From a virus, in the IMG/VR virus record IMGVR_UViG_3300025120_000384, positions 1 through 28,618 of that record: 28,618 nucleotides of DNA, one strand, 5' to 3'. The notes under the pieces are model-generated. The model saw nothing but the letters and a program-made list of their open reading frames with translations, was not told the origin of the DNA and did no database searches. Below, one piece after another: positions 5,690 to 28,618 of this stretch. The position numbers were made by a program, and so were the translations under genes. How positions within the stretch are numbered: the first letter of the stretch is position 1; every line of letters begins with the position of its first letter.

Positions 5690-5887
5690 ATGGCTAAAAC
5701 CGTCTTTGACGTGCTACGAAACAAAATCGAAGAGGACATCTCTTCTGCACAAGAATTTCTAGGTAATGGAGGAGCTAAAGACTTCGCCCAATACAAAGAA
5801 ATAACAGGAATGCTACGAGGTCTCACTTCCTGTCTTAATCATACAAATGACCTCTCGCGTAATTATTTGGAAGACGACAATGACTGA
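5690..5887 (+). CDS. Small acidic helical protein next to the portal
   Basis: This 65-aa protein lies between the portal and GroES genes. The start is well supported: GAAGGA lies upstream and the gap to the portal stop is three bases. It looks helical and acidic (FDVLRNKIEEDISSAQEFL), with a central DFAQYKEITGMLRGL helix, and ends EDDND. The gene end overlaps the GroES start by 8 bases. I recognise no enzyme family. Small proteins of this type after the portal are common in marine podovirus-like phages, and the function is unknown. A minor head or portal-assembly role is only a guess from position. Confidence 0.7.
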   Translation: MAKTVFDVLRNKIEEDISSAQEFLGNGGAKDFAQYKEITGMLRGLTSCLNHTNDLSRNYLEDDND

Positions 5888-6266
5888 TCTAACAATAGTA
5901 CCAAAAGAAGCAGAGAACGAAGAAGAACTAGAGCACCAAATCCCCACTCCTGTAGGGTATCGTGTCCTAGTAGCCATGCCGGAAGTAGAAGATACGTATG
6001 GTGAAAGTGGCATAATCAAGTCTAGTAAGGAAATTCACAACGAATACATCATGTCTACCATAGGGCTTGTGCTCGACATGGGAGATCAAGCGTATTCTGA
6101 CAACACTCGTTTTCCTACCGGAGCTTGGTGTAAGTCTGGGGACTACGTAATGTTCCGTGCCAATACTGGCACGCGTTTTAAAGTAGGTGGTGTTGAGTAT
6201 CGTTTAATGAATGATGACTCAATTGAAGCAGTAGTAAGCGATCCTCGTGGCGTTACACGAGTGTGA
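5880..6266 (+). CDS. GroES-like co-chaperonin
   Basis: This 128-aa protein matches the Cpn10/GroES fold pattern. After an acidic 20-residue lead come TPVGYRVLVAMPEVED (the GroES 'plhDRVlV' strand), ESGII (the GroES mobile loop, residues 42-46, keeping the hydrophobic tip that docks on GroEL), IGLVLDMG (the 'G.VlavG' strand), KSGDYVMFRANTGTRF (the 'vGD.V.F....g' strand) and SIEAVV at the end. GroES caps the host GroEL ring. T4 gp31 and RB49 CocO are established phage versions needed to fold the capsid protein. The place in the head module, just before the scaffold, suggests the same client here (inference). I take the ATG at 5880 because the family similarity starts after it and it lies in the coupled overlap AATGACTGA. 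Confidence 0.85.
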   Translation: MTDLTIVPKEAENEEELEHQIPTPVGYRVLVAMPEVEDTYGESGIIKSSKEIHNEYIMSTIGLVLDMGDQAYSDNTRFPTGAWCKSGDYVMFRANTGTRFKVGGVEYRLMNDDSIEAVVSDPRGVTRV

Positions 6267-14336: not shown

Positions 14337-16175
14337 ATGACAACGCAATATACTTCAATACTTAAACTTGCATTACCAGTTCAAGGCGAGCTTAGTGGTT
14401 CTTGGGGTGATGTAGTAAATAACAATATCACCTCTATGGTGGAGCAAGCTGTCGCAGGCCGTGCGGTAATTAATACGTGGTCTGGGAACTCACATACGCT
14501 AACCAGCGCAAACGGGACTACTTCCGAATCAAGATGTGCGATGCTAGAGTTTACCGACACAGGTACTCAGCTAACTGGCGCAGGAACTGTAGTATGCCCC
14601 ACAGCTACTAAAATATACATCGTAAAGAATGCCACTGGGCAGAGCGTAACGCTTAAAACATCCGGTGGTTCGGGGATTCTTGTCCCTAACGGACGCACTA
14701 TGTTCTTGTTCTGCGATGGAACTAACGTAGTCGAAGCACTAACTAGCACAACATCCTTACAGTTAGGTACTAGCACTGTAGTAACGGCGGTACTAGACGA
14801 AGACAATCTAGGGTCAAACAGCGCCACATCTCTCGCCACTCAACAGTCTATTAAAGCATATGTAGACTCTCAAGTAGGTGCCGCAGATACATTAGCAGAA
14901 GTCCTTGCCCTTGGTAACACTACGGGGGGTACGAACATTGTAGTATCTACTAACGATGAGCTTGTGCTACCTGACGGTGCAGAGGGCGCACCCTCTCTCA
15001 CAAACACTGGCGACACTAACACAGGTATTTACTTTGGCGCTGCTGATACGGTAAGTGTTACTACTGGCGGTACTAAACGACTGGATGTAAACAGCGCAGG
15101 TATTTCTGTAGTAGGTACAGCTTCCGGTACTGCCCTAGCCGCTACAGGTACTTCCGCAGTCCAAGTGTCGGTGGGTACTACAGCTCAACGACCAGCAAAC
15201 GGCGCAGGTCAGTTTCGATACAACTCTACGCTAGGTAAGTTTGAGGGTTACACGACAGAATGGGGCGAAATCGGCGGCGGTGCTGCTGAGTTACTCCTTA
15301 ATCAGTTTACAGGTAATGGCTCTACAACTGCCTTTACTATGTCTTCTTCACCAGTAGAAGCTAACACGCTTGTATATATTGACGGTGTTTACCAGAACAA
15401 AACGGCATACTCCGTTGCTAACGACGTTATAACGTTCTCAGCCGCTCCAGCAAACAATGCGGCTATCGAAGTTACAGCGGCTACAGTAGCCCCCGCAGAG
15501 GCTCCAACTACGTTCTCCCTTAGTCAGTTTACAGGTAATGGCTCTACAACAGCGTTTACTCTGTCATCTCAATCAGTAGAGAACAACACTGACGCTTACT
15601 TTGACGGTGTGTATCAGTCTAAAAGCAACTACACAGTATCTGGAACTACTATTACTTTTAGTACGGCTCCCGCAAACGGTGTAGCTGTCGAGGTAATGGC
15701 TTCTCAGGGCGTTAGCGTAAGTATAGGTACCCCTGATAACAATACCGTCACAACGGCTAAGATAGTAAATAGCGCGGTTACAACGGCTAAGATAGCAGAT
15801 GATGCAGTTACTGCCGCCAAGATCGCTGACGACGCAGTAGTTGCAGCCGCTATCGCAGATGATGCCGTAGGAGCAGCCGCAATAGCTTCTGACCCTATAG
15901 CTGTAGGAATAACCACAACAGTTACAAGTAGTAACATAACTGCTACAGTAAACACACATGTATACGTAGATACGGCTAGTCGAACTATTACTTTACCTGC
16001 TTCTCCTTCTATAGGGCAACGGGTGTTAATAACTGTAGGTAACTTCACAGACACAGTAGTAGGGCGAAACGGATCAAACATTATGAGTAGCGCATCTAAC
16101 ATGACATTAGATTCTGCGTACCTCTCAATTCAATTTATGTATACAAACTCTACAGTAGGATGGGCAATGACATGA
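14337..16175 (+). CDS. Tail fibre protein, cassette A
   Basis: The 612-aa fibre protein has a probable virion-binding N-terminus (TQYTSILKLALPVQGELSGS) and a beta region to about 150. A short coiled coil follows (SLATQQSIKAYVDSQVGAAD, 165-184), then a region with peptidase-free 'SLTNTGDTNTGIYFG' strands. Two 74-residue repeats (QFTGNGSTTAFT at 323 and 397) share the DGVYQxKxxY and TITFSxAPAN features of phage fibre domains. Five ten-residue repeats of the AKIADDAVT type fill 473-517, and the tip domain (about 545-612) has VVGRNGSNI. It should trimerise and carry the receptor-binding tip with the glycine-rich partner. The end overlaps the next ATG by four bases. Confidence 0.85.
   Translation: MTTQYTSILKLALPVQGELSGSWGDVVNNNITSMVEQAVAGRAVINTWSGNSHTLTSANGTTSESRCAMLEFTDTGTQLTGAGTVVCPTATKIYIVKNATGQSVTLKTSGGSGILVPNGRTMFLFCDGTNVVEALTSTTSLQLGTSTVVTAVLDEDNLGSNSATSLATQQSIKAYVDSQVGAADTLAEVLALGNTTGGTNIVVSTNDELVLPDGAEGAPSLTNTGDTNTGIYFGAADTVSVTTGGTKRLDVNSAGISVVGTASGTALAATGTSAVQVSVGTTAQRPANGAGQFRYNSTLGKFEGYTTEWGEIGGGAAELLLNQFTGNGSTTAFTMSSSPVEANTLVYIDGVYQNKTAYSVANDVITFSAAPANNAAIEVTAATVAPAEAPTTFSLSQFTGNGSTTAFTLSSQSVENNTDAYFDGVYQSKSNYTVSGTTITFSTAPANGVAVEVMASQGVSVSIGTPDNNTVTTAKIVNSAVTTAKIADDAVTAAKIADDAVVAAAIADDAVGAAAIASDPIAVGITTTVTSSNITATVNTHVYVDTASRTITLPASPSIGQRVLITVGNFTDTVVGRNGSNIMSSASNMTLDSAYLSIQFMYTNSTVGWAMT
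15302..15550 (+). repeat. Duplicated fibre domain (222-bp spacing)
   Basis: The 27 bases at 15302-15328 (TCAGTTTACAGGTAATGGCT onward) are identical to 15524-15550. The offset of 222 bp equals the 74-residue protein repeat. The flanks are diverged, so the duplication is old or its ends are homogenised by recombination. Confidence 0.85.
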
Positions 16176-16960
16176 GTAATTTTACAGACTTTATAGGTGG
16201 CGGCGGTGGTTCTCTACCAGTAAACATAGCATTAACTGAATCACAAACATGGGTTCCACCCGTTGATGGAAACATTTGTATTCATGTTATTGGCGCTGGT
16301 GGCGGCGGTGTCGGCTCTAGTGGCGGTGGCGGTGGTGGTGCTGGTGGGTATTGCAAAAAGAACTCTTTGGCTGTCACTACCTCTGGCTCTTTTACAGTTG
16401 TTATAGGTTCAGGAGGATTAGGCTCTACGAATAACGCGACTGCAAGCAACGGAGGCAACTCAACAGTTGCTGGTACAGGGCTGTCAGCCACGCTAACCGC
16501 TAACGGCGGTACTGGCCCTGCAACGAATGCTAACGGGCAGGGAGGGACAGCATCTAATGGCGATGTAAATAATACTGGTGGTCAAGGCGGCTGGTATGGC
16601 GGCGGGGCAGTAGGCGTGTATAGGTCTAATAGTTCTAACTCTCAAACCGGACAACGTGGAGCTGGTGAAAGTTCTGATGCGCTGGGTGACCCCGCCCTGA
16701 TGGGTTATGGTTATATAGTCGGAGGCCAAGGCGGTAAGACTTTTAACGGCGAAAGTGACTACTCAACAGTTGGAATGCACGGAGGGTTTTTAGCTGGCGG
16801 TGGCTCATCTTGGGGAGGAGGCGCTGCGTACCAAAGTTGGGGCGGTGACGGTGGCGTAGGAGGTGGCGGGGGAATGGGCTACAAAACTAGCAACACTAAT
16901 TCTGCTTTTGGCGGTACTGGTGGTGACGGCATCGTAATTATCCAATACCTACCAGCATAA
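16172..16960 (+). CDS. Glycine-rich adhesin-like protein, cassette A
   Basis: The 262-aa protein starts at the ATG at 16172 (ATGA overlap with the fibre stop). It opens MSNFTDFIGGGGGS, then SQTWVPPVDGNICIHVIGAG with GGGGVGSSGGGGG, the GGYCKKNSLAVTTSGSFTVV strand, and ends IVIIQYLPA. Gly makes up roughly a third of the chain. This is the pattern of the glycine-rich phage tail domain. In T-even-like phage S16 the Gp38 adhesin with polyglycine helices sits at the fibre tip and binds the host. The family resemblance is by pattern. The same framework recurs in cassettes B and C with different central loops, which probably contact the receptor (inference). Confidence 0.78.
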   Translation: MSNFTDFIGGGGGSLPVNIALTESQTWVPPVDGNICIHVIGAGGGGVGSSGGGGGGAGGYCKKNSLAVTTSGSFTVVIGSGGLGSTNNATASNGGNSTVAGTGLSATLTANGGTGPATNANGQGGTASNGDVNNTGGQGGWYGGGAVGVYRSNSSNSQTGQRGAGESSDALGDPALMGYGYIVGGQGGKTFNGESDYSTVGMHGGFLAGGGSSWGGGAAYQSWGGDGGVGGGGGMGYKTSNTNSAFGGTGGDGIVIIQYLPA

Positions 16961-16970
16961 GGAGAGAAAA

Positions 16971-17267
16971 ATGAAATACAAAATTAAAGATGCTGACGGA
17001 AACGTCACAAACACTATAAAAGCTAGTGCTGAGTTTGTTGAAGCTAACTTTGAACACTATGAACTGTATGTTGAGCCTACATCAGCAGAGCCTACAGTAG
17101 CAGAAGCTGGCCGCATGTGGCGTGATATGGAACTATCCTCTTCAGACTACATAGTCCCTCTGTCAGACCATCCACAACGTGCAGCTTACATGACCTACCG
17201 TACAGCTTTGCGGGATTGGCCCTCTACAGATGCATTCCCTGCAACTAAGCCGGAGTTAGGAGAATAA
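16971..17267 (+). CDS. Tail-fibre-assembly-like protein, cassette A
   Basis: The 98-aa protein begins MKYKIKDADGNVTNTIKASA and ends with WRDMELSSSDYI and YRTALRDWPSTDAFPATKPE. The C-terminal part (RxxxLxxxD, then YRxxLRDxP) is the mark of tail-fibre-assembly and XkdW-like proteins, which act as chaperones or bind the fibre tip. It is nearly the same size and sequence as the product at 18495 and similar to that at 20052. A GGAGAG ribosome site precedes the ATG. Whether it remains in the virion cannot be seen. Confidence 0.75.
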   Translation: MKYKIKDADGNVTNTIKASAEFVEANFEHYELYVEPTSAEPTVAEAGRMWRDMELSSSDYIVPLSDHPQRAAYMTYRTALRDWPSTDAFPATKPELGE

Positions 17268-17268
17268 T

Positions 17269-17652
17269 ATGTCAGTAACTAAAGTAAGTAGTACGCTGCT
17301 TGCAGATAACTCTGTTACAGCCGTAGCTATTCTTGATGGTACTATTACCTCTGCCAAGTTAGGCGCAGGCGTAGGCGGAGCATTCAACAACTTTTTAATA
17401 AAGACAGCAGACTACACCGCAGTTACACGCGATCAGATAATCGTAAACAGCGCAAGTGCTAGAACGATTACACTGCCCGCAAGTCCCGCAGCAGGGAACG
17501 TAGTATTTATAAAAAACGCTGGTGCAGGTGTTGTAACCGTGGGGCGTAATGGCTCAAACATTAATTCAACGGCAGATAACGGCTCACTGGCGACAGACGC
17601 TGGTGCAACTCTTGTGTACGTTGATTCAACAATCGGATGGAAGGAGCTTTAA
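17269..17652 (+). CDS. Short fibre tip protein, cassette B
   Basis: This 127-aa protein starts MSVTKVSSTLLADNSVTAVA and has one or two of the ten-residue repeats seen in the cassette A fibre. The C-terminal domain (about 57-127) reads SARTITLPASPAAGNVVFIK, then VVTVGRNGSNI and TIGWKEL, clearly the same domain as the cassette A fibre end (TASRTITLPASPSIG...VGRNGSNI). So it is a minimal fibre, lacking the N-terminal virion-binding and 74-residue repeat regions. It would have to assemble onto another fibre or dock directly. Stop and next ATG are adjacent (TAAATG). Confidence 0.75.
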   Translation: MSVTKVSSTLLADNSVTAVAILDGTITSAKLGAGVGGAFNNFLIKTADYTAVTRDQIIVNSASARTITLPASPAAGNVVFIKNAGAGVVTVGRNGSNINSTADNGSLATDAGATLVYVDSTIGWKEL

Positions 17653-18483
17653 ATGGCTATTAAATTAGGCGGGGGTGGCTCTGCGTCATTCCCTACAATA
17701 TTTTTAAGCAAATCCCAGACATGGGTTCCACCACAGGACGGCAACATAATGATTCATGTCATTGGCGCTGGTGGTGGTGGCCGTGGTTGGGATTCTTATA
17801 CGACTAGTGGTGCTGCTGGTGGCTATTGCAGAAAAAACTCTTTAGCTGTAACTACCTCTGGCTCTTTTACAGTTGTCGTTGGAGCAAGTGGCGCTGGCGG
17901 TGCAAACGGCAGAGGTAATAGTGGTCAAGGAGGCACTGGAGGAAACTCAACTGTAGCAGGCACTGGGTTGTCGGCTACTCTAACGGCTAACGGGGGTGCA
18001 GGGGCGGCAGGTTCTAATGGCGCATCGGCCGCATCAGGAGGCACAGCCTCAAATGGGGATGTAAATAACACAGGTGGTGCAGGGGGGGTTGCTTGGGGCG
18101 TATACGGTGGTGCTGGCGGTGGCGCAGTGGGGCTTACAGGGACAGGGCAAGCAGGTACTGTTGGTAATTCAGACATTCCCACAGCGGGAGAATGTGACAT
18201 TATTGGAGACTTGTGGTCATCTACAATAGGTCAAATAGCTGGCGGCATAGCTGGGCGCTGTATTAGAAAGACTAGTGGCACAGTACCTTATGACGCTGTC
18301 AATGGCGGCCCACTATCAGGCGGAGGCGGTGTTTTATTTAATACAGGCAGTGAGATGCTGGTGCAAGGCGGTGCTGGAGGCATTGGTGGCGGTGGGGGTG
18401 CAGGCGAAAACAGGGGCCACATCTCATCATCTTTAGGTGGTGAAGGCGGTGAAGGTCTTGTTGTTATCCAGTACATCCCATAA
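17653..18483 (+). CDS. Glycine-rich adhesin-like protein, cassette B
   Basis: The 276-aa product opens MAIKLGGGGSASFP. It shares SQTWVPPQDGNIMIHVIGAG, GGYCRKNSLAVTTSGSFTVV, GNSTVAGTGLSATLTANGG and GTASNGDVNNTGG with the cassette A partner, and ends LVVIQYIP. The region between roughly 130 and 240 differs strongly (GECDIIGDLWSSTIGQIAGG). This is what an adhesin with a constant frame and a variable receptor-contacting part would look like. It starts directly after the tip-protein gene. A role at the fibre end is inferred. Confidence 0.76.
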   Translation: MAIKLGGGGSASFPTIFLSKSQTWVPPQDGNIMIHVIGAGGGGRGWDSYTTSGAAGGYCRKNSLAVTTSGSFTVVVGASGAGGANGRGNSGQGGTGGNSTVAGTGLSATLTANGGAGAAGSNGASAASGGTASNGDVNNTGGAGGVAWGVYGGAGGGAVGLTGTGQAGTVGNSDIPTAGECDIIGDLWSSTIGQIAGGIAGRCIRKTSGTVPYDAVNGGPLSGGGGVLFNTGSEMLVQGGAGGIGGGGGAGENRGHISSSLGGEGGEGLVVIQYIP

Positions 18484-18494
18484 GGAGATATGAA

Positions 18495-18791
18495 ATGAAA
18501 TACAATATTAAAGATGCTGATGGAAACATAACAAACACCATCACTGCTGACGCTGAGTTTGTTGAAGCCAATTTTGAACACTATTCGCTTTGGGTAGCAC
18601 CTACACCTGTAGAACCTACAGCAGAAGAAGCTGGGCGTACATGGCGCAATGGTGAGTTAGATGCTACAGATAGAGCAGCAGAGATATCTGACTGGCCGAA
18701 CCGTGACAACATCCTGACCTACAGGACTGCATTGCGTGACTGGCCTGCTACTGACGACTTCCCAGATACGCGACCGACTTTAGGAGAATAA
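18495..18791 (+). CDS. Tail-fibre-assembly-like protein, cassette B
   Basis: The 98-aa product is a close paralogue of the cassette A protein: MKYNIKDADGNITNTITADA and EFVEANFEHY are nearly identical, and the end has WRNGELDATD and NRDNILTYRTALRDWPATDD. The 56-base segment 18690-18745 is 51/56 identical to 20253-20308 in cassette C, so the C-terminal half is closer to C while the N-terminal half is closer to A. This mosaic pattern suggests recombination. A GGAGAT ribosome site precedes the ATG. It is coupled to the next gene by one base. Confidence 0.75.
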   Translation: MKYNIKDADGNITNTITADAEFVEANFEHYSLWVAPTPVEPTAEEAGRTWRNGELDATDRAAEISDWPNRDNILTYRTALRDWPATDDFPDTRPTLGE

Positions 18792-18792
18792 G

Positions 18793-19197
18793 ATGCCTCT
18801 AACTACGATAAAGACAACGGGGGTTACAGACGACGCTGTCACGGCTGCGTTGATAGCTGATGATGCTGTTGGTTCTGCCGCGATTGCAGATGGTGCTGTA
18901 GGTACGGCTGCTTTAGCATCTACTATAGCCGCTGGTATTCCTACGGCAACGGTAAGCAGCAACGGCAATGCAACAGCTAACACGCATCATTACGTTGGCA
19001 CTGCTGGCGTAACGCTAACGCTTCCAACGCCCACTGTAGGCATGAAGGTGTACGTCACTGTAGGTAACTTTGTAAACACCGTGGTTGGTCGCAACAGTAG
19101 CACCATTGTAGGACAATCTTCAGACTTAACAATTGATGTGGCTAACATGAGCATTGGTCTTATTGGCATATCAACTTCAGCATGGGTATTTATCTAA
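18793..19197 (+). CDS. Short fibre tip protein, cassette C
   Basis: The 134-aa product has three or four ten-residue repeats (AVTAALIADDAVGSAAIADG) at residues 15-45. A tip domain follows with VTLTLPTPTVGMKVYVTVGN and NTVVGRNSSTI, homologous to the other two fibre ends. As in cassette B, the N-terminal fibre parts are missing. The stop overlaps the next ATG (TAATG). A partner of the cassette C glycine-rich protein is likely. Confidence 0.75.
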   Translation: MPLTTIKTTGVTDDAVTAALIADDAVGSAAIADGAVGTAALASTIAAGIPTATVSSNGNATANTHHYVGTAGVTLTLPTPTVGMKVYVTVGNFVNTVVGRNSSTIVGQSSDLTIDVANMSIGLIGISTSAWVFI

Positions 19198-20039
19198 TGA
19201 GTAATTTAACAGACTTAATTTCAGCAGGTGGTGGCGGTGGGGCTACAGTAGCTTTTAATGTCCACATTACTACGTCTCAAACATGGACTCCCCCTTATAA
19301 CGGTGTAGGTACAATTCACTTGATTGGTGCTGGCGGTGGTGGCGGTTCAGACAAAGCTGGCAACAGGCGTAGTGGAGGCGCAGCGGGTGGTTATTGTAAA
19401 AAAGAAGTTACGTTTTCTACAAGCACTAACTGGACAATGGTTGTAGGAGCCAAAGGTAACGGAACTAGCGATCAAAGTGGAAGCGGAGCCAACGGGTCGG
19501 CTGGCGGCAACACGACAGCTACTGACGGAACTATCTCTCTCGCGGCTAATGGAGGCGGTGGAGGTATAAACGGAGCCCCTGCGGTTGGTACTGCTTCTGG
19601 AGGTGACGTTAATTTTAGCGGAGGTTCTTCTAATCTTGGCCAGTCTGGTGGGGCTGTAGGAACAACAGCTAACGGACAAAATGGTGTAGGCGGGTTTAAT
19701 GCTAATTATGGTGTATATACCGCAGATTCAGATTTTATAAGCCCTTATGACCCTTTAGCCTATGGTTACTTAACTGGCGGTGACAAAGGTGGCCGAAACG
19801 CTTGGACATATGGTGGTGCAGGCAATTATAAAGATGGAGAAAACGGTGGTTTTGGCGGTGGGGGTGGACACGGAAATTTAGGCACTAACTACGTGCTTCC
19901 AAGTGCAGGCCACGGTGGAATAGGCGGTGGCGGTGGGGCTTCTGTAAATGTACAGGGTCTTTCCGCAGATTTCTATAAATTCCAATCTGGTACTGGCGGT
20001 GTAGGGCTTATCCTTATCCAATACAAAACAATTACTTAA
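19197..20039 (+). CDS. Glycine-rich adhesin-like protein, cassette C
   Basis: The 280-aa protein starts at the ATG at 19197 (MSNLTDLISAGGGGGAT, like cassette A). It keeps TSQTWTPPYNGVGTIHLIGA, GGYCKKEVTFSTSTNWTMVV and the GLILIQYKTIT end, but is the most diverged of the three. The centre is Gly/Asn/Tyr-rich (NYGVYTADSDFISPYDPLAY). The framework is that of the glycine-rich tail domain. The distinct central loops would give it a third specificity (inference). The stop is 12 bases before the next ATG. Confidence 0.76.
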   Translation: MSNLTDLISAGGGGGATVAFNVHITTSQTWTPPYNGVGTIHLIGAGGGGGSDKAGNRRSGGAAGGYCKKEVTFSTSTNWTMVVGAKGNGTSDQSGSGANGSAGGNTTATDGTISLAANGGGGGINGAPAVGTASGGDVNFSGGSSNLGQSGGAVGTTANGQNGVGGFNANYGVYTADSDFISPYDPLAYGYLTGGDKGGRNAWTYGGAGNYKDGENGGFGGGGGHGNLGTNYVLPSAGHGGIGGGGGASVNVQGLSADFYKFQSGTGGVGLILIQYKTIT

Positions 20040-20051
20040 AGGTAAAATAAA

Positions 20052-20354
20052 ATGCCTAATTACAATATTTTAGATGCCGAAGATGGCGACATAATAAATA
20101 CGATAATAGCCAGTGAGGATTTTGTCTCAGCTAATTATAATTTTTATCAAGAAGTCACAACGTCTGGGGATATTAATCTTACAGCAGAAGAGACTGCACG
20201 ACAGTGGCGTGACATGGAACTGACATCTACAGACACGGCAGCCCAAACTCCAGACTGGCCTAATCGTGACAACATCCTAACCTACAGAACTGAATTGCGT
20301 GACTGGCCGTCAACTTCTGATTTCCCAGCTACTAAGCCTACTTTAGGCAGCTAA
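20052..20354 (+). CDS. Tail-fibre-assembly-like protein, cassette C
   Basis: The 100-aa protein is the third paralogue. The first half is diverged (MPNYNILDAEDGDIINTIIA), while the second is almost that of cassette B (WRDMELTSTD, then NRDNILTYRTELRDWPSTSD). Conserved Trp, Arg and Asp residues are kept. A variable N-terminus with a constant C-terminus would suit a chaperone that recognises its own cassette's fibre partner, though this is inference. It is separated by one base from the next gene. Confidence 0.74.
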   Translation: MPNYNILDAEDGDIINTIIASEDFVSANYNFYQEVTTSGDINLTAEETARQWRDMELTSTDTAAQTPDWPNRDNILTYRTELRDWPSTSDFPATKPTLGS

Positions 20355-20355
20355 T

Positions 20356-20805
20356 ATGATTGCAGAAATCTCAGCAGTAGTGGGTGTACTCAAGACTCTT
20401 AACGCAGGTATAAAGACTGTGAAGGAGTCTGGGTCACACCTGTCAGATTTAGCTGGGATTTTTACAAGTATCACCGAAACTAAAGTTGCTGTAGACAACA
20501 TTGAAGAAGCCCAAAAGCAAGGCGACACTGTTCTGACGCAAGAGCAAGCACTAGAACTTGCATGGGCAAAAAATGAAATACGCGAACGTGAAAAAGAGCT
20601 AAAGAAAATCACCCCGCGACAAGTCTGGCGAGATATGCTTTCTATCCAGCACAAATCGGTAATGCAAAATAAACAGCGGCTGGAAAAAGAAAGATTAGAC
20701 AAGTTGCGTAAGATTTCTAAAAACGACGACATGATTAAAAACATTGCTGGCGGTGTGGCTCTAGTTGCCGCTCTATACGCCGCCTACTATTTCTACGGAA
20801 TGTAA
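20356..20805 (+). CDS. C-terminally anchored coiled-coil membrane protein
   Basis: The 149-aa protein has a short amphipathic N-terminus (MIAEISAVVGVLKTLNAGIK), a long charged helical body (about 35-125, with EIREREKELKKITPRQVWRD) and a single C-terminal hydrophobic segment (IAGGVALVAALYAAYYFYGM). It thus looks tail-anchored in the inner membrane with the body in the cytoplasm. The N-terminus resembles the product at 21372, so the two are probably paralogues. Its position just before holin-like genes suggests a lysis-related or membrane role. I recognise no named family. Confidence 0.62.
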   Translation: MIAEISAVVGVLKTLNAGIKTVKESGSHLSDLAGIFTSITETKVAVDNIEEAQKQGDTVLTQEQALELAWAKNEIREREKELKKITPRQVWRDMLSIQHKSVMQNKQRLEKERLDKLRKISKNDDMIKNIAGGVALVAALYAAYYFYGM

Positions 20806-20807
20806 GA

Positions 20808-20993
20808 ATGCCCACGATGAAAGAACTTAGCGCAAAACAAGTTGCTCACGAAAAAGAATGTTTAGCGCGTTATGAAAATATAGAGCGTAGGCTTACTGAT
20901 GGTAGCAAAAGATTTGACCGACTAGAAAACATGTTGTGGGGAATGTACCCCATGATTATAGGTTTGTTTGCTTTAACAAAATGGATACAGTGA
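20808..20993 (+). CDS. XhlA-like holin-associated protein
   Basis: The 61-aa protein has a charged coiled-coil N-terminal half (HEKECLARYENIERRLTDGS, KRFDRLENM) and a C-terminal transmembrane helix (MYPMIIGLFALTKWIQ). This is the architecture of XhlA-type hemolysin/holin-associated proteins, which work with a holin. The ATG at 20808 is not backed by a good ribosome site, and an ATG at 20817 is an alternative. The next gene starts two bases after the stop. It is a likely part of the membrane-permeabilising module. The family call is by pattern. Confidence 0.65.
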   Translation: MPTMKELSAKQVAHEKECLARYENIERRLTDGSKRFDRLENMLWGMYPMIIGLFALTKWIQ

Positions 20994-20994
20994 T

Positions 20995-21372
20995 ATGTTA
21001 CAAGCACTTATTGCCCCAGTTACAGGGCTACTAGACAAGTTTATAGAAGACAAAGATGCTAAGAACGCATTGGCTCACGAAATAAGCACAATGGCAGAGC
21101 GTCATGCCTTAGAGTTGGCGAAGGGTCAGCTTGAAGTTAACAAGGTAGAAGCTGCACACAAGAATCTCTTTGTTGCTGGCTGGAGACCCGCTGTGGGATG
21201 GTCATGCTGTTTCGCCTTAGTCTATTCTACTATCCTATCCCCTATCTTGAGTATATGGTTTACTGTGCCTCCTGTAGACAGCTCCCTGCTTACTACTGTA
21301 TTGATGGGTATGCTAGGTCTTGGTGCTATGAGAACTGTTGAGAAGACCAAGAAAGTTCAGAGAGACAGGTAG
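20995..21372 (+). CDS. Holin-like protein (3-TM type)
   Basis: The 125-aa product has an N-terminal helical stretch, then KNLFVAGWRPAVGWSCCFAL with hydrophobic segments (about 58-85) and LLTTVLMGMLGLGAM near 100, and a basic tail (EKTKKVQRDR). The AGWRPxxGW motif followed by membrane helices is characteristic of the 3-TM holin-like family best known from gene transfer agents and related phages. Such proteins would make the inner membrane permeable and let the endolysin out. It lies in the lysis region, three genes before... the endolysin at 21803 with one gene between. Confidence 0.8.
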   Translation: MLQALIAPVTGLLDKFIEDKDAKNALAHEISTMAERHALELAKGQLEVNKVEAAHKNLFVAGWRPAVGWSCCFALVYSTILSPILSIWFTVPPVDSSLLTTVLMGMLGLGAMRTVEKTKKVQRDR

Positions 21373-21806
21373 TGCTTGCGGAGATTGCAGCGGCTAATGC
21401 TGCCTTCACGGTTATTAAGAAAGCTCTGGAGAATGGTAAAGAGCTATATGATGTGGCTGGTTCTGCTACACAATATTTTGACAACAAGTCAGCGATAGCT
21501 AAAAAAGCAAACAAAGCAGGCGGCAAGTCAGAACTTGAATGTTTTATGCAGCTAGAAAAGTTAAGAGAACAGGAAGAATGGCTACGCGAGTACATGATCT
21601 ATGCTGGACGCGCTGACATGTATTCAGACTGGTTACAGTATCAGTCAGACTGCAAGCGTAATAGAGAAAACGCAGAGAGAATAAGAAAAAGAAAGAAAGC
21701 AGAGATGTGGGCATTGTTAATTTCTGCGTTACTGTGGGGTACAGGCATATTAGTTATTCTGCCTCTGGCTCTTTACATAGGCTTTAAGATTTTTGGTGTA
21801 CTATGA
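21372..21806 (+). CDS. Second C-terminally anchored membrane protein
   Basis: The 144-aa protein uses a GTG start at 21372, one base overlapping the holin-like gene stop. The N-terminus (MLAEIAAANAAFTVIKKALE) matches the pattern of the protein at 20356, and the charged middle has QEEWLREYMIYAGRADMYSD and basic RIRKRKKAEMW. Then come hydrophobic segments to the end (ALLISALLWGTGILVILPLA, LYIGFKIFGVL), one or two helices. It probably sits in the inner membrane with the helical part in the cytoplasm. The duplicated type around the holin suggests an accessory lysis or membrane role. The family is not identified. Confidence 0.62.
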   Translation: MLAEIAAANAAFTVIKKALENGKELYDVAGSATQYFDNKSAIAKKANKAGGKSELECFMQLEKLREQEEWLREYMIYAGRADMYSDWLQYQSDCKRNRENAERIRKRKKAEMWALLISALLWGTGILVILPLALYIGFKIFGVL

Positions 21807-22147
21807 GATACTTCGATAGAAAAGATTTCGACTGCCAAGAGACAGGCAACAACGAAATGTGCGATGAGTTTCTTGAAAAGCTAGATGAATTGCGGCATGT
21901 CTGCGATTTCCCTTTTATCATCACCAGCGGGTACCGAGACCCAGAGGGGCATAGCATAGAGGCAGCCAAAAAAAATCCGGGCACCCATTCACGCGGGATT
22001 GCCTGCGACATCAAAATATCCAACGGGAACCAAGCATATGCTATCATTAAGTACGCTCAATCAATGGGCTTTAATGGTATAGGCGTAGCTAAAACCTTTA
22101 TCCATGTAGACACTAGAGAGACTACTCCAGTGGTATGGTGCTACTAA
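21803..22147 (+). CDS. Endolysin, M15-type peptidase
   Basis: The 114-aa protein is a peptidoglycan peptidase of the M15 / D-Ala-D-Ala carboxypeptidase-like type. The zinc ligands are seen as HSRGIACD (H62 and D69) and FIHVDTR (H101). The ITSGYRD motif and the GFNGIGV strand are also in place. No signal peptide is present, so it needs a holin to cross the membrane, and holin-like genes lie directly upstream. It is of normal length for a single-domain enzyme and has no separate wall-binding domain, as usual for phages of Gram-negative hosts. The start overlaps the previous stop (ATGA). Confidence 0.9.
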   Translation: MRYFDRKDFDCQETGNNEMCDEFLEKLDELRHVCDFPFIITSGYRDPEGHSIEAAKKNPGTHSRGIACDIKISNGNQAYAIIKYAQSMGFNGIGVAKTFIHVDTRETTPVVWCY

Positions 22148-22165
22148 AACACGTACAGGTGTGAT

Positions 22166-24010
22166 ATGCCACTCAAAAAACTACAGTTAAAAGCAGGCGT
22201 TAACCGCGAAAACACCAGATATGCTAGTGAAGGTGGGTGGTACGAGTGTGACAAAATTAGGTTCCGCCAAGGTACGCCGGAAAAGATTGGTGGGTGGCAG
22301 CGTATCTCTGCGTCTACGTTCCAAGGCGTATGCCGTTCACTATGGAATTGGTTTACTCTAGGGAGTCAGAACCTAGTTGGCGTAGGTACTAACCTCAAGT
22401 TCTATATTGAGAATGGCGGTAACTACTACGACATAACACCTATTAGGGCTACGCTAACTCTTACTAACCCCTTTACTACTGCATCAGGCTCTACTACGGT
22501 GGTTGTCGCAGACGTTGCTGGAGGGTATGCAGTAGGAGACTTTGTTATTTATAGCAACGCTACTGCCGTAGGCGGGTTGACACTAAACGGTGAGTTTCAG
22601 ATAACAGGTATTGACGTAAACTCATACACCATAACAGCTCCTAGCGCGGCATCTAGTACTGCTACGGGAGGCGGCAGTGTAACTGCTGAATATCAGATAA
22701 ATGTTGGCCCTGCGTACGCAGTACCCCTAGAAGGCTGGGGTGCTAGTAGTTGGGGCTTCGGTGCTTGGGGTGTGGGTCAGTCATCTAACGAGTCTATACG
22801 TTTGTGGAGCCAAGCTAATTTTGGTGAAGACTTGATATTCGGGCACAACGAAAGCCCTTTATTTATATGGAAAGCTAGCGATGGGGTAGGTACACGCGCT
22901 ACTAGACTAGATCAAGAGGTAGGAGCTACAGGAGTTCCAGTAGTACAAGACGAAGTAATAATCTCAGACCTCAACCGCTTTGTATTTTGTTTTGGCGCAA
23001 ACGACTTGGGTACTACTTCTTCTAACCCTATGACTGTGCGGTGGTCAGATCAAGAGAACGCCTTAGATTGGACGCCTAGTGCTACCAACCAAGCAGGTGA
23101 CTTGATACTGTCTAACGGGTCTAAGATCATTGCAGCTAAACAATCTCGCCAAGAGATACTAGTATGGACGGACTCGGCGTTGTATGCACTACAGTATGTA
23201 GGCGCACCAGTGGTTTGGACTGCACAGTTGGTCGGAGAAAACACATCTATCGCCTCTCAGAATGCTGTAGCTTACTCTAACGGCGTAGCTTACTGGATGG
23301 GTAGAGATAAGTTCTATATGTATGATGGACGCACAAAACCCCTCAAGTGCGACCTACGCAAGTTTGTGTTTGACGACTTTAACCAAGAGCAGTTTGATGG
23401 AGTGTTTGCAGGAACTAACGAGTCTTACCACGAGATATGGTGGTTCTACTGTTCAAAGGATTCTACTACTAGTGATCGGTATGTGGTGTACAACTATTTA
23501 GAGGGAGTGTGGTACTACGGCACTATGGCTCGTTCAGCATGGTTAGACTCAGGGCTTAGGAATAATCCTTTAGCAGCCACCTACAACTACAATCTAGTTA
23601 ACCATGAAGAGGGTGTAGACGATAACGAGACAGCTAACACCGCAGCCATACCTGCATACGTAACGTCCGCTCAGTTTGACTTAGACGATGGACATCAGTT
23701 CATGTACATAAACAAAATATTACCTGACATGCGGTTTGATGACTCTGTATCTGGCGCTCCTAGTGCTACAATAACGTTGCTCCCTTTGGCAAACTCAGGG
23801 TCTGGGTATACAACACCTGCTTCTGTGGGGGGCAATGCTTCCGCTAGTGTCGTTAGAAGTGCTATATTACCCGTAGAAGTGTATACAGATCAGATACATA
23901 CCAGAGTACGGGGACGCCAAATGTCCTTGAAAGTAGAATCCACAGCCGTAGGCGTTACTTGGCAGATGGGTACTCCACGAGTTGATATGCGCCCTGACGG
24001 TAGACGATAA
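22166..24010 (+). CDS. P22 gp10-like tail nozzle / DNA stabilisation protein
   Basis: The 614-aa product is the probable nozzle or packaged-DNA stabilisation protein (P22 gp10, T7 gp12-like). The N-terminus KAGVNRENTRYASEGGWYEC with DKIRFRQGTPEKIGGWQRIS is the hallmark of the family. The middle shows propeller-type beta segments (FGHNESPLFIWKASDG, VRWSDQENALDWTPSAT, QEILVWTDSALYALQYVGAP), and the C-terminus RGRQMSLKVES. An insert at about 95-180 (TTASGSTTVVVADVAGG) and a WG-rich stretch at about 190-205 (GWGASSWGFGAWG) are additions. The length exceeds P22 gp10 (472 aa). The AGGTG ribosome site is upstream. The protein would seal the head and carry the fibres. Confidence 0.85.
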   Translation: MPLKKLQLKAGVNRENTRYASEGGWYECDKIRFRQGTPEKIGGWQRISASTFQGVCRSLWNWFTLGSQNLVGVGTNLKFYIENGGNYYDITPIRATLTLTNPFTTASGSTTVVVADVAGGYAVGDFVIYSNATAVGGLTLNGEFQITGIDVNSYTITAPSAASSTATGGGSVTAEYQINVGPAYAVPLEGWGASSWGFGAWGVGQSSNESIRLWSQANFGEDLIFGHNESPLFIWKASDGVGTRATRLDQEVGATGVPVVQDEVIISDLNRFVFCFGANDLGTTSSNPMTVRWSDQENALDWTPSATNQAGDLILSNGSKIIAAKQSRQEILVWTDSALYALQYVGAPVVWTAQLVGENTSIASQNAVAYSNGVAYWMGRDKFYMYDGRTKPLKCDLRKFVFDDFNQEQFDGVFAGTNESYHEIWWFYCSKDSTTSDRYVVYNYLEGVWYYGTMARSAWLDSGLRNNPLAATYNYNLVNHEEGVDDNETANTAAIPAYVTSAQFDLDDGHQFMYINKILPDMRFDDSVSGAPSATITLLPLANSGSGYTTPASVGGNASASVVRSAILPVEVYTDQIHTRVRGRQMSLKVESTAVGVTWQMGTPRVDMRPDGRR

Positions 24011-24204
24011 TGGCTATAGATATTACAAACTACAACGTACCCTTTAGGGCGCCTGCACTGCCGTACCCGCCACAAGTGTACGACCAAACGTCATTTGAAG
24101 AGTTTAATAAAGTACTGCGTATATATTTTAACCAGCTAGACAACGCCTTGCGTAACGATACAAATGCGCTTCGCGCTGAAGCTACTACTTGGTTTATGAG
24201 CTAA
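24010..24204 (+). CDS. Small conserved virion-region protein
   Basis: The 64-aa protein contains ALPYPPQVYDQTSFEEFNKV followed by LRIYFNQLDNALRN, a segment common among small marine phage proteins encoded next to the nozzle gene. The end is helical and acidic. It is coupled on both sides, sharing a base with each neighbour (TAATG). It has no membrane segment or enzyme motif. A structural role near the tail is likely, but not proven. Confidence 0.7.
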   Translation: MAIDITNYNVPFRAPALPYPPQVYDQTSFEEFNKVLRIYFNQLDNALRNDTNALRAEATTWFMS

Positions 24205-24524
24205 TGGCTAATACTTATAAGAACGCAAAAGTAGACCTATCTACAACCGCTGCTACTACACTATACACTTGTGCATCGACTGTCACGGCTATAGTCAAGT
24301 CTATAATAGTATCTGAAGACTCTGGTAATGCAGACACTATAACGGTAACCATAACTAATGGCTCTTCTGTATACAGCCTATTTAAAGTTAAAGCCGTTGG
24401 CGCTAATGCTACAGTAGAGTTATTAACAGCGCCTCTTGTCGTACAGCCTACAGAAGTATTAAAAGTAACCGCAGCTACTGCAAATAGATTACATGTGGTA
24501 GCAAGCATACTAGAGATTACATAA
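24204..24524 (+). CDS. Small beta-rich virion protein
   Basis: The 106-aa product starts at the ATG at 24204 (MANTYKNAKVDLSTTAATTL), coupled to the previous stop. It is rich in Thr, Val, Ala and Ser in alternating strands (STVTAIVKSIIVSED; DTITVTITNGSSVYSLFKVK), like a beta-sandwich fibre or decoration domain. The style resembles the protein at 9669. The family is common in marine phages, without an established function. The stop shares a base with the giant ORF start. Confidence 0.66.
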   Translation: MANTYKNAKVDLSTTAATTLYTCASTVTAIVKSIIVSEDSGNADTITVTITNGSSVYSLFKVKAVGANATVELLTAPLVVQPTEVLKVTAATANRLHVVASILEIT

Positions 24525-27500
24525 TGACTGTTAAGAATCCTCCTACTGATAAAGGTGCGGACAACTACTTTGACTTCCTTGGTGACGAATACACAGGGTT
24601 TGACTACGTAGCGCCGCCCCTATCTCAGACTGATGCGTTCTTAGCATGGAAAGACACTGTAAATACAGACCGTGGGTCAGACGAGTACAGCCTACAACGT
24701 TATCCTGACCAGAATCAATTTTTCTTGAATGAGATGGCTATACCCTCGTGGTATCCTGAGTCTTATAGAGCGTACAGGAAAGCTGGGGGCTTGAGCGGGG
24801 GGCTTGCTTACAACAATCCTAACCCTGAATTTGGCGCTCCTCGGTTAACAGAAGAATCACGAAACAGCGCGGAAGAAAACCTAGCTAACTTTACTCAAAC
24901 CCTTCTTGAAAATGGAGGTGTAGGCAATTTAGAAAGCATAGATTTTGACAACCTAGATAGCATGTTGGCCGCGCTACAAGACACGCCCTTTGATTTAGAT
25001 GCATTACTTGCCGACACTAAAAGTTTTGGTGGGCAGACTATATCTGAACAAGAGTGGTTTAGCCCCGAAAGAGAAGAGATAGTACGTAAGTTTTTTGAAG
25101 GGCAGTCTAATGACCCCCTTGATCGTGGTTCCTTAATAAAAGGACAGACTTGGGAAGAAGCTAAGACCGCCTTGGCTAGAGGCGTAGACCCAGATAACGT
25201 GTTTGCAAAATTAAATACCCTGTCAAGTAAGTCTCACGACGACTTCGCAGCGATGGATTACGAAATAGGTTACGACACCGTATCAGGAGTAGGGCCGCAT
25301 ACAGCGTTTAGAGACCTTTCTGATGCTCATTTTATTGAGACTTACAACGAGTTTAATACTGATTTAAACACCCTACGAAACGAAGACCCCGAAGCGTTTC
25401 AAGCAGCTTACGATTTTCTACCTGTATCAGGCAGGCAAGGTTACCTTTACGGGCTACATAAATCAGGCGTTATAGATGCTGAGCAGTACGAAAGCATGTA
25501 CATGTCAGAAGTTAATTCGTACGCTGACGACATACAAGACCCTTTCGCCCCTAGGTACGTTACGGTAGAAGGTAATACATACTTATACAAGCCTTCTGGT
25601 GACCCCAACAGTGGAGAAGACCCCGCACCTATAGATGTCCGGCGTGATTTGTATAATGTAAACTTTTACCCTGACGAAGGTAGCATTACTCCTCGTCGCA
25701 GCTTACGCACTAGAGATTTTGACCCTAGTAGTTATGACTTCTTTGATCCTATAATGAACGTTGTTGCGATGACCCCTTTAGCTCCTTTGGCTGCGGTATA
25801 TACAGCCGTAAAAGGTCTTTCAGGTGAAACACTCCACGCTTCAGACTACCTACGTGCAATTCCCGGCACTGTACAAGGTATAGATTACGCTGCTAAACAA
25901 GCGGGTTCAACTTTTAGAGTCCCTAAAACTTTAGGGGAGTGGCTAGAAGCGGCGAATGTTGAGGGCGTTGGCACGTTACCACAAGCTGTGCAAGACATTA
26001 ACATAACTGTTGCTGCGGGCAAAGCCGCCGCTGCCGGAGCTATACTTTTCGACGATAGTACCCCCCTAGGAGATATTATAAAGATTGGTGGCGCTATATA
26101 TGAAGGCGTAACTACCGAAAGTTCAGGGAGAAGCCAAGAATATAACCCTATAACTCAGGGGGTAATAAATAACTTTGTACAGCAAATGGACGCTAACGGT
26201 GTACCTATCCCCGAAGGAGCTTACCAAGTAGACCCTAACACGGGTATGTTCGTCAGTGCTAACGGTGATTTAGTTACATACTTAGACGCCTTTAGCGAGT
26301 TACTAGACTCATATAGAAAAGAAAAGCCTCAAGAGTTTGCAGAAGCCATTGCAGGGGAAGACGCTGACCCTTCTCTTAAACAGATAGTGGGCGCTGCTAC
26401 CTATAACGTCGCTAAACAACTGGTGGACTACATAGGTACTGATGAAGATTCTGCAAGGCAGCAGGTATTAGCAACAATATTGTCTGGTACTTCTCAGATG
26501 ATTAACAACGCCAACGGCGCTATACAATTTGGAGAGACTCATCCCGACAATACTGAGTTGGCAAAACTATCTCGCAACCTATCTAACTTATCCGATGCGT
26601 CTAACACTACTGCCGTAAAAGAGGGTATGGAAGCGTTAAGAGAGTACAACGACGCCTTCCAAGCTAAAGAATATTTCGAGCCTACTACCGCAGAAGAATA
26701 CAGGGCGTCCGCACTATATAAAGCGCAGGTAATGAAATATGGAGAAGCAGCGGCAGAAGAGTGGTTGAAAGACGAAATTGAAGGCGCTAACTTCTTAAAC
26801 AGTGCTATAAACGGCACGGTAAAGTTTTTTGGCGGCCTTAAAGCATCTCCCGCATCATTTTTAGCGGAGTTAGGTAGCGAGGTAGTAGAAGAAGTACCAA
26901 ACTTAGCAGCCTCGGTTGTAACAAAAAGTGGTCTCGGCGCCTTCTTAAAAAGCGCCACTGCTGTAGCTAAAAAGGTAGACGTTAAAGACCTTACAGATGA
27001 TGTCTTAGGGGCTATAAATAAAGCCGAAAACTTTGCGGGGCTAGCCACATCCACAGTATTAGACCTTGCCGAAGCTATAGGTGGCTCTGCTTCTGAAGGA
27101 TTTAACTCCACGCTAGACCTGCTTAGAAAAACACAAGCCGAAGCAATAGTAGCGTCCGCTGAGTTTAAAACGTATGTAAAGACGTTAGGTTCGCAAGTAC
27201 AAGCGGGTACGCTTACAGAAGAGCAATACCGCGCCGAAGCAGAAAAGTATGTGCAAGATAAAGTCATGGCTAATGACGAGGCCAATAGGGAGATAGCAGT
27301 AGGAGTTAGCACTGATGCCGGAGTCGCTGGTGGGTTAGCTATGATTGCTTCTCAATTAGTATTTGGCGATGCCGTAGACCAGAAGATACTTACTAAAGCG
27401 TTCGGCAAGAAAGCAGACCTAGTTAAAGAAATTGGTGAAGGGTTTGTAGAGCGAGCTAAAGAGTGGGCTAAAAAGACTGGAAGAAGTATAACCGGAGGGG

Positions 27501-28618
27501 CGTCTGCGGTAGTTAAAGAGTTTTTTGGAGAAACTACAGAAGGAGGTGTTGTATCCGGAGTTATAAACACTAGGTTAGTCGCTATAGACCCCACTATAGA
27601 TGTAGCGCAAGAAGTTACAGGCGATGCATGGTACGAGGGGGTTTTAGGTTTAGGCACTTCTACTGCGTTACTAACTGGTAACTACTTTGCAGACATACTG
27701 AAAGACGCTGGACTTGAGGATAGCTTGTCTGTCGATAACGGCAACCAATGGCTAGTTGACGCCTCTGACTCTACGTATGTTGATATAGAAGGGGACTTAG
27801 CCTCTAGGATGTTGGCTAACTATAACGAAGACATTAACACCGTCATGCAAACTAATGACAGTGGCGCTCCTTTACTTTCTGAAGATAGTATCAAGGACAC
27901 GTTTGCTGCCGCAGGAATAGACCCAGAAGAGTTCCCCCGTTCCTACGCTACGTTGATGAACCATGTGTATGACGAGAACTATACGAGTCCATCTGAAGCC
28001 GCCTTTGCATTTGACGAGGCAGGGTACACCCCCACGCAAGAAGAAATAAATGCATATATTGGCGAGACTTACGGTAATGATGCCATAGATCAAGCGATAG
28101 ATGACTATGTAGACCCCCGCCAGACAACGCTTTCTGAAGTAGAAGAGTACGCTAGAGCGGCGGGCGTATCTCTATCTGAAGAACAGATACAGCAGCTTGT
28201 AGGGCAGTATGACAACTCTATAAGTGATGATGAGCGATTTACACAACTAATAGCAGGCGATCCCGACTTAGCTGTTCTCTTTGGTTCCGATTCTATTACT
28301 AGTGGCACACAAACCCTAGACACTGATGGGGATGGCGTTCTTGACTCAGAAGATAATGACGATGACGGCGATGGCATACTTGACACAGATGACCAATTCC
28401 CATTACTGAGTAGTTATGTAGACGAAGATGGTTCTATTGTTGTTACAGAGGTAGACGGCTCTACAACTATATATGACTTAGACGAGAACGGTGACCCTGT
28501 AGTTAGACCTCCTATTGGTAATACTGACACTACCTATACTGCTGGTACCTACGTTGATCCTGATGGAGATGGTGTATACCAACTAGTTGGTGACGACGGT
28601 AAAACCTTAACAGGTGAG
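24524..28618 (+). CDS. Giant virion/ejection-type protein (partial, 3' end outside)
   Basis: The frame is open for 1365 codons from the coupled ATG at 24524 to the window edge. The first 400 residues are acidic and helical. Hydrophobic or Gly/Ala-rich stretches occur near 411-435 (MNVVAMTPLAPLAAVYTAVK), 490-510 (VAAGKAAAAGAILF), 930-950 (AGVAGGLAMIASQLVFG) and 1040 (YEGVLGLGTSTALL). Such a giant protein after the nozzle gene is typical of internal virion/ejection proteins that cross the host envelope with the DNA (T7 gp15/gp16 role, by analogy). No lysozyme or protease motif is seen. Near the cut, residues 1266-1293 hold Asp-rich calcium-binding-type repeats. The rest lies beyond the window. 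Confidence 0.82.
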   Translation, partial: MTVKNPPTDKGADNYFDFLGDEYTGFDYVAPPLSQTDAFLAWKDTVNTDRGSDEYSLQRYPDQNQFFLNEMAIPSWYPESYRAYRKAGGLSGGLAYNNPNPEFGAPRLTEESRNSAEENLANFTQTLLENGGVGNLESIDFDNLDSMLAALQDTPFDLDALLADTKSFGGQTISEQEWFSPEREEIVRKFFEGQSNDPLDRGSLIKGQTWEEAKTALARGVDPDNVFAKLNTLSSKSHDDFAAMDYEIGYDTVSGVGPHTAFRDLSDAHFIETYNEFNTDLNTLRNEDPEAFQAAYDFLPVSGRQGYLYGLHKSGVIDAEQYESMYMSEVNSYADDIQDPFAPRYVTVEGNTYLYKPSGDPNSGEDPAPIDVRRDLYNVNFYPDEGSITPRRSLRTRDFDPSSYDFFDPIMNVVAMTPLAPLAAVYTAVKGLSGETLHASDYLRAIPGTVQGIDYAAKQAGSTFRVPKTLGEWLEAANVEGVGTLPQAVQDINITVAAGKAAAAGAILFDDSTPLGDIIKIGGAIYEGVTTESSGRSQEYNPITQGVINNFVQQMDANGVPIPEGAYQVDPNTGMFVSANGDLVTYLDAFSELLDSYRKEKPQEFAEAIAGEDADPSLKQIVGAATYNVAKQLVDYIGTDEDSARQQVLATILSGTSQMINNANGAIQFGETHPDNTELAKLSRNLSNLSDASNTTAVKEGMEALREYNDAFQAKEYFEPTTAEEYRASALYKAQVMKYGEAAAEEWLKDEIEGANFLNSAINGTVKFFGGLKASPASFLAELGSEVVEEVPNLAASVVTKSGLGAFLKSATAVAKKVDVKDLTDDVLGAINKAENFAGLATSTVLDLAEAIGGSASEGFNSTLDLLRKTQAEAIVASAEFKTYVKTLGSQVQAGTLTEEQYRAEAEKYVQDKVMANDEANREIAVGVSTDAGVAGGLAMIASQLVFGDAVDQKILTKAFGKKADLVKEIGEGFVERAKEWAKKTGRSITGGASAVVKEFFGETTEGGVVSGVINTRLVAIDPTIDVAQEVTGDAWYEGVLGLGTSTALLTGNYFADILKDAGLEDSLSVDNGNQWLVDASDSTYVDIEGDLASRMLANYNEDINTVMQTNDSGAPLLSEDSIKDTFAAAGIDPEEFPRSYATLMNHVYDENYTSPSEAAFAFDEAGYTPTQEEINAYIGETYGNDAIDQAIDDYVDPRQTTLSEVEEYARAAGVSLSEEQIQQLVGQYDNSISDDERFTQLIAGDPDLAVLFGSDSITSGTQTLDTDGDGVLDSEDNDDDGDGILDTDDQFPLLSSYVDEDGSIVVTEVDGSTTIYDLDENGDPVVRPPIGNTDTTYTAGTYVDPDGDGVYQLVGDDGKTLTGE
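28319..28402 (+). other. Asp-rich calcium-binding (TSP3-type) repeat
   Basis: Within the giant ORF, DTDGDGVLDSEDNDDDGDGI and then LDTDDQFP follow the DxDGDGxxDxxD spacing of thrombospondin type 3 repeats, which bind calcium in many bacterial surface proteins. A further DPDGDGVYQ occurs at about residue 1346. The match is by spacing of Asp and Gly. Confidence 0.8.

Follow-up and report, generated by a model that had tools for sequence, protein, structure and literature searches.

A thrombospondin type 3 double loop in the hypervariable linker of a giant phage late protein

The window, that is, the whole 28,618-nucleotide stretch of viral DNA analysed here, encodes two back-to-back thrombospondin type 3 (TSP3) loops near the end of a giant late protein. 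The loops occupy a hypervariable, mostly acidic linker between a conserved N-terminal region and a conserved C-terminal domain. We give an even chance to the reading that this genuine TSP3 double loop is an optional part of an exchangeable spacer joining the two conserved domains. This adds a giant protein, encoded by relatives of abundant marine podoviruses, to the carriers of TSP3 repeats, which more widely include about a hundred viral contigs.

The TSP3 double loop

The virus record comprises 28,618 bases and ends inside the carrier open reading frame (ORF), with the C-terminal third of the protein missing. Complete homologues measure 1804–2042 aa in close relatives and reach about 2,500 aa in more distant members. 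The features of the ORF and of its two upstream neighbours are as follows.

22166–24010, + strand: upstream neighbour, nozzle or 'stabilization protein' family (phrog_3287)
24189–24524, + strand: 111-aa protein directly upstream (phrog_1276), with relatives in phages 023Pt_psg01 and DSL-LC04
24524–28618, + strand: giant late protein, 1365 aa, 3'-open, the record ending within the ORF
24524–28216, + strand: conserved N-terminal region, approximately 1,230 aa, 39–77% identity in relatives
27797–28216, + strand: most conserved block, directly before the linker, 140 aa (alignment A2)
27833–28618, + strand: putative recombinant gene end, from the switch in nucleotide identity (L003 versus L005)
28319–28402, + strand: DTDGDGVLDSEDNDDDGDGILDTDDQFP, two back-to-back TSP3 loops, residues 1266–1293 of the ORF
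28319–28354, + strand: first TSP3 loop, DTDGDGVLDSED, by pattern match
28358–28393, + strand: second TSP3 loop, DDDGDGILDTDD, followed by QFP, by pattern match
28418–28498, + strand: further Asp-rich linker sequence, VDEDGSIVVTEVDGSTTIYDLDENGDP, common to L002–L004
28532–28618, + strand: TYTAGTYVDPDGDGVYQLVGDDGKTLTGE module, cut by the record end, of varying copy number among relatives

The double loop lies far above chance expectation. Both DTDGDGVLDSED and DDDGDGILDTDD fit the pattern D-x-[DN]-x-DG-x-x-[DN]-x-x-[DN], and the TSP3 spacing recognized in the first-pass annotation is borne out, being encoded exactly at 28319–28402; the further DPDGDG reported nearby is also present, as VDPDGDG at 28553–28573 of the same ORF. 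Two or more pattern loops occurred in none of 20,000 shuffles of the 120-residue Asp-rich tail (mean of 0.0075 loops), and shuffling of the whole protein (n = 3,000) gave a mean of 0.002 loops and never two. A double-loop HMM, built from 53 TSP3 double loops of other viral proteins, scored 31.9 bits with the full protein and 36.7 bits with only the tail; no score above 14.7 bits arose in 2,000 shuffles of the tail. The 53 units were picked by pattern, which makes the model somewhat circular, though their source proteins are unrelated.

The TSP3/dockerin profile search that had been suggested as a check gave a divided answer for TSP3. The Pfam TSP_3 model has no match to the window segment at E ≤ 1, whereas the homologous linkers of L060 (47.1 bits) and L052 (29.0 bits) pass its cut-off of 25 bits. 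The TSP3 array of another homologue, L021, matches the OmpA-family TSP3 structure 5wtl (E of 7.5e-5, and of 1e-6 with a profile). Structure prediction was poor for the window segment (mean pLDDT of 43.5) and too weak for the L021 array with its C-terminal domain (mean pLDDT of 61.4), and a fold search with the predicted models gave nothing usable.

Lineage and genomic context

The core genes indicate that the source is an uncultured marine podovirus related to HTVC023P: the terminase is 44–46%, the portal 38–39% and the capsid protein 65–66% identical to those of the cultured pelagiphages HTVC023P and HTVC027P. The phage origin assumed at the outset is supported. The HTVC023P type is described as widespread and as having two cultured members (PMC9599517).

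The genes are ordered as terminase, portal, GroES-like protein, capsid, fibre genes, nozzle-family gene, 111-aa gene and then the giant ORF. The gene for the GroES-like co-chaperonin (5847–6266) separates the portal and capsid genes, an arrangement shared with HTVC023P and HTVC027P. Within the fibre region, three glycine-rich paralogues (16160–16960, 17653–18483 and 19182–20039; Gly_rich_2 / phrog_2295 / phrog_863) alternate with short genes over 16160–20039, an arrangement that suggests local duplication. The phrog_3287 family is annotated as a stabilization protein in DSL-LC04; we read it here as the nozzle. In a 58-kb relative, G001, genes of 566, 642 and 2054 aa come after the homologue, making four large late genes downstream of the nozzle gene, and the coding strand switches afterwards. 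The 2054-aa protein at the end of this late block (G001 16565–22729; L030 16565–20000 into L031) contains an LPD39 (large polyvalent protein) domain.

The giant ORF thus has the position by which podovirus ejection proteins are recognized, that of a large late gene after the tail nozzle gene, and this would be the place of internal or ejection proteins or of tape-measure-like proteins. Because no PHROG or Pfam profile family matches the N-terminal region, the functional assignment rests on gene order, from which our best guess is an internal (ejected) or tail-associated virion protein. The earlier designation as a virion protein therefore stands as far as gene position goes, with gene order as its basis.

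A tail-associated location would also suit a different explanation, in which the linker is an exposed, diversifying region of the particle surface that contacts receptors or host envelope structures or evades host factors, with TSP3 as an adhesive module like those of bacterial surface proteins. The strain-level variation, the recombination at the linker and the repeated gain or loss of TSP3 described below resemble the behaviour of diversifying surface regions, and TSP3 also occurs in another family of viral virion structural proteins (L077, phrog_14478). However, the linker variants are of low complexity, mostly without recognizable folded binding domains, and the gene is at the ejection-protein position, apart from the fibre genes at 14337–20039. 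We regard this explanation as unlikely.

Homologue family and linker types

Twelve homologous loci were found by a first scan and more by profile scans. They share a three-part architecture: approximately 1,230 conserved aa at the N-terminus, then the linker, then a C-terminal domain of approximately 300–450 aa that is likewise conserved. The C-terminal domain is predicted, with moderate confidence, to be mostly helical, and a conserved tail, GG-x-[IV]...LL[RK][IL][IL]G, marks its end. At L007 (3438–7704) the homologue is split into two frames of 735 and 722 aa, reflecting either an assembly frameshift or a broken gene.

No homologue of the giant protein, of its C-terminal domain or of the distant members L104 and L023 was detected among cultured and GenBank phages, nor was any found in prokaryote genomes by a C-terminal-domain profile search. 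Within the limited set of literature searched, the hypervariable two-domain family appears undescribed, and no report placed thrombospondin type 3 repeats in phage virions. Two literature matches were discarded: a 'TSP3' that denotes tailspike protein 3 rather than the repeat, and a 'dockerin' in an E. coli phage paper that is a carbohydrate-binding module.

The linkers differ widely in sequence. L002–L004 carry the same TSP3 pair as the window; the ligand Asp positions are unchanged, and the loops differ only by conservative substitutions (V/I, L/I, G/N and N/D). TSP3 is absent from the closest relatives, L005 and L006 (77% and 68% identity), which have (DT)n. Arrays of 5–10 TSP3 loops are present in L008, L009, L012 and L021, and L019 combines PITGDPD repeats with three TSP3 loops. 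L029 and L037 contain about 65 VDP units, L023 has TPDP repeats, and wider members add EP, TP, DDDPV, ETPVDE, GTDAGVD, STTT and alanine/glutamate-rich (AEADRLAAEA) repeats. Most linkers have very few Lys or Arg and many Asp or Glu residues; the STTT-rich linkers of L144 and L152 and the TP-rich linker of L129 are poorer in acidity. At least two TSP3 loops were found in 13 of the 55 distinct full-length homologues. On a tree of the C-terminal domain, the presence of two or more TSP3 loops requires seven changes of state, and at least five of these changes are forced by well-supported branches.

This distribution bears on the calcium switch proposed in the first-pass annotation, taken here as a conserved one in which TSP3 would be folded in the calcium of seawater and would unfold in the low-calcium cytoplasm, driving the stability or refolding of the ejected protein. 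True TSP3 loops whose ligand positions are maintained between the window and L002–L004, together with the marine origin of the cultured members of the lineage, are consistent with such a switch. The proposal had predicted conserved Asp positions across relatives and had named their loss in close relatives as evidence against it. The prediction held in the more distant clade L002–L004 but failed in L005 and L006, where (DT)n stands in place of TSP3, and this is the loss in close relatives that had been named. The small share of homologues with two or more loops and the forced changes on the tree also speak against a conserved calcium-dependent function of the segment, and we consider the switch improbable.

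Recombination and repeat-length change

In parts of the stretch encoding the N-terminal region, the window DNA is approximately 95% identical to L005 and only 44–54% identical to L003. From about 27833 onward, identity is 83–92% to L003, and 77–80% and then 48% to L005. Over 27833–28527 the window and L003 are 87.5% identical, with TSP3 kept, whereas L003 is a relative of 50% identity. On the simplest reading of this switch, the gene end arrived by recombination inside the conserved block that precedes the linker and brought the TSP3 linker with it. Such recombination would also be the reason that the Asp pattern fails in the nearest relatives and holds in a more distant clade.

Linker length varies as well, with the reservation that repeat lengths were taken from metagenomic assemblies, which can themselves distort them. 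Near-perfect tandem DNA repeats were found in L009 (129 bp × 3.2, 100%), L029 (9 bp × 65.6) and L005 (6 bp × 18.2 and 135 bp × 2.1). The C-terminal domains of L131, L132 and L133 are identical over the last 250 aa, yet indels as long as 76 aa separate their linkers. Between L127 and L130 the difference amounts to a 10-aa VDP-type unit (DPVVDPDVDP) and another of 69 aa. L010 and L003 have identical C-terminal domains, with the TYTAGTYVDPDGDG module present twice in L010 and once in L003.

The TYTAGTYVDPDGDGVYQLVGDDGKTLTGE module is present in two copies in L005 and in L010, and L008 and L009 have a variant of it close to the N-terminal end of the protein. Variants of the form TYxAGTYVDPDGDG near the ORF N-terminus were located in L008 (2894), L009 (2414) and L012 (990); their presence there implies that the module moves within the gene. 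The module is where the window record stops, and the ends of L006 and L007 fall within it or directly behind it. Among contigs that start inside the ORF, 19 of 21 start within the last 871 aa (C-terminal-domain scan; P = 4e-5 if uniform). Metagenomic assemblies of HTVC023P-related phages accordingly tend to break at the giant gene.

Neutral drift could in principle produce much of this variation: an almost unconstrained linker would expand in the manner of micro- and minisatellites, and TSP3 would have no function here. Near-perfect repeats of short period, the wide range of unrelated repeat types, and 36 non-synonymous versus 25 synonymous codon changes in the recombinant stretch are in keeping with this idea. 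The spacing of the TSP3 ligands is nevertheless kept in several lineages, and an Asp/Glu-rich, Lys/Arg-poor composition in most linkers is unexpected from random drift, which leaves drift a doubtful explanation.

Dockerin-like loop of the C-terminal domain

Of 69 distinct C-termini, 65 contain a loop of the form YD-V-[TN]-x-D-G-[VI]-[IV]-D-x-x-D; the four exceptions are the most distant members. The loop lies 146–301 residues from the C-terminus, and falls outside the window only because the record is truncated. The Dockerin_1 profile matched below threshold in all six C-terminal domains tested (best score of 21.5 bits against a cut-off of 22.9 bits), and the loop aligns to dockerin chains in the Protein Data Bank (PDB) with a best E of 0.013. 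If calcium matters for this family, its conserved candidate site would be this downstream loop rather than TSP3.

Proposed role of the linker

Under the preferred reading, an exchangeable linker with TSP3 as an optional part, the linker would serve as a spacer, with its length and net negative charge counting for more than its exact sequence. The linkers of low acidity in L144, L152 and L129 weaken the acidic part of this idea. TSP3 would be one of several interchangeable linkers, stiffening with the calcium of seawater and softening at low calcium. Tandem duplication may create new linkers, and recombination within the adjoining conserved block may exchange them between lineages.

A more specific version, which we put forward as speculative and probably incorrect in its full form, combines the dockerin-like calcium loop with the exchangeable linker, TSP3 in some lineages, into a modular spacer of adjustable length that would set the reach or stiffness of the protein in seawater and let it soften on cell entry. 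Were it true, linker type and copy number would be tuned rapidly to the host envelope by duplication and recombination. The linker constitutes a natural experiment, in which the same two domains are joined by a dozen unrelated repeats. Since linkers are exchanged by recombination and differ in length between near-identical strains, both the spacer role and the relevance of calcium are directly testable.

Comparison with known systems

Known carriers of TSP3 repeats include matrix proteins of animals and surface proteins of bacteria, and calcium binding by these repeats is established. The window segment resembles the bacterial TSP3 repeats of PDB entry 5wtl and of Pfam families PF02412 and PF18884 in its DxDxDGxxDxxD loops and bacterial DxFP-type spacing, but it has two loops only and scores below the Pfam cut-off. 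The carrier also differs from the OmpA-family protein of 5wtl, being a phage late protein rather than an outer-membrane protein, and the repeats are optional within its family.

TSP3 in a phage protein is not novel by itself, since viral contigs commonly contain TSP3 arrays, 98 stretches of which were confirmed in one scan. Many unrelated proteins of viral contigs (L041–L117) have such arrays, from 2 to 52 loops long, and one viral contig, IMGVR_UViG_3300028131_000823 (204,977 bases), encodes two different TSP3 proteins (L051 and L073). Among GenBank phages no TSP3 arrays were found beyond one chance match, a search in which the BLAST low-complexity filter may hide them. The phrog_14478 virion structural protein (L077 and relatives) has long TSP3 arrays with a double-loop unit closely like that of the window, although the two carriers are unrelated.

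The C-terminal YDVNxDGxIDxxDxxxL loop corresponds to one half of a type I dockerin (PF00404; PDB entries 2y3n, 2ccl and 1ohz). Type I dockerins are defined by two duplicated EF-hand-like segments, whereas this family has a single conserved loop that stays below the Pfam cut-off, and no cohesin partner of the domain is known.

Among the related phages HTVC023P, HTVC027P and DSL-LC04, none encodes a recognizable homologue of the giant late protein. What DSL-LC04 shares with the window is the terminase (47%), the nozzle (36%) and, behind the nozzle, a small related protein. The syntenic place in DSL-LC04 holds a 759-aa protein annotated as tape measure, which was rejected as a homologue for want of detectable similarity. 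In that block, the final large gene is annotated as a DNA transfer protein. The syntenic protein (L121 31141–33516, − strand) has a tandem repeat of its own, GMDLSSAQGTLGGPSYA. Because this unrelated protein also bears a repeat, repeat-bearing linkers at the giant-gene position may be more general than one protein family.
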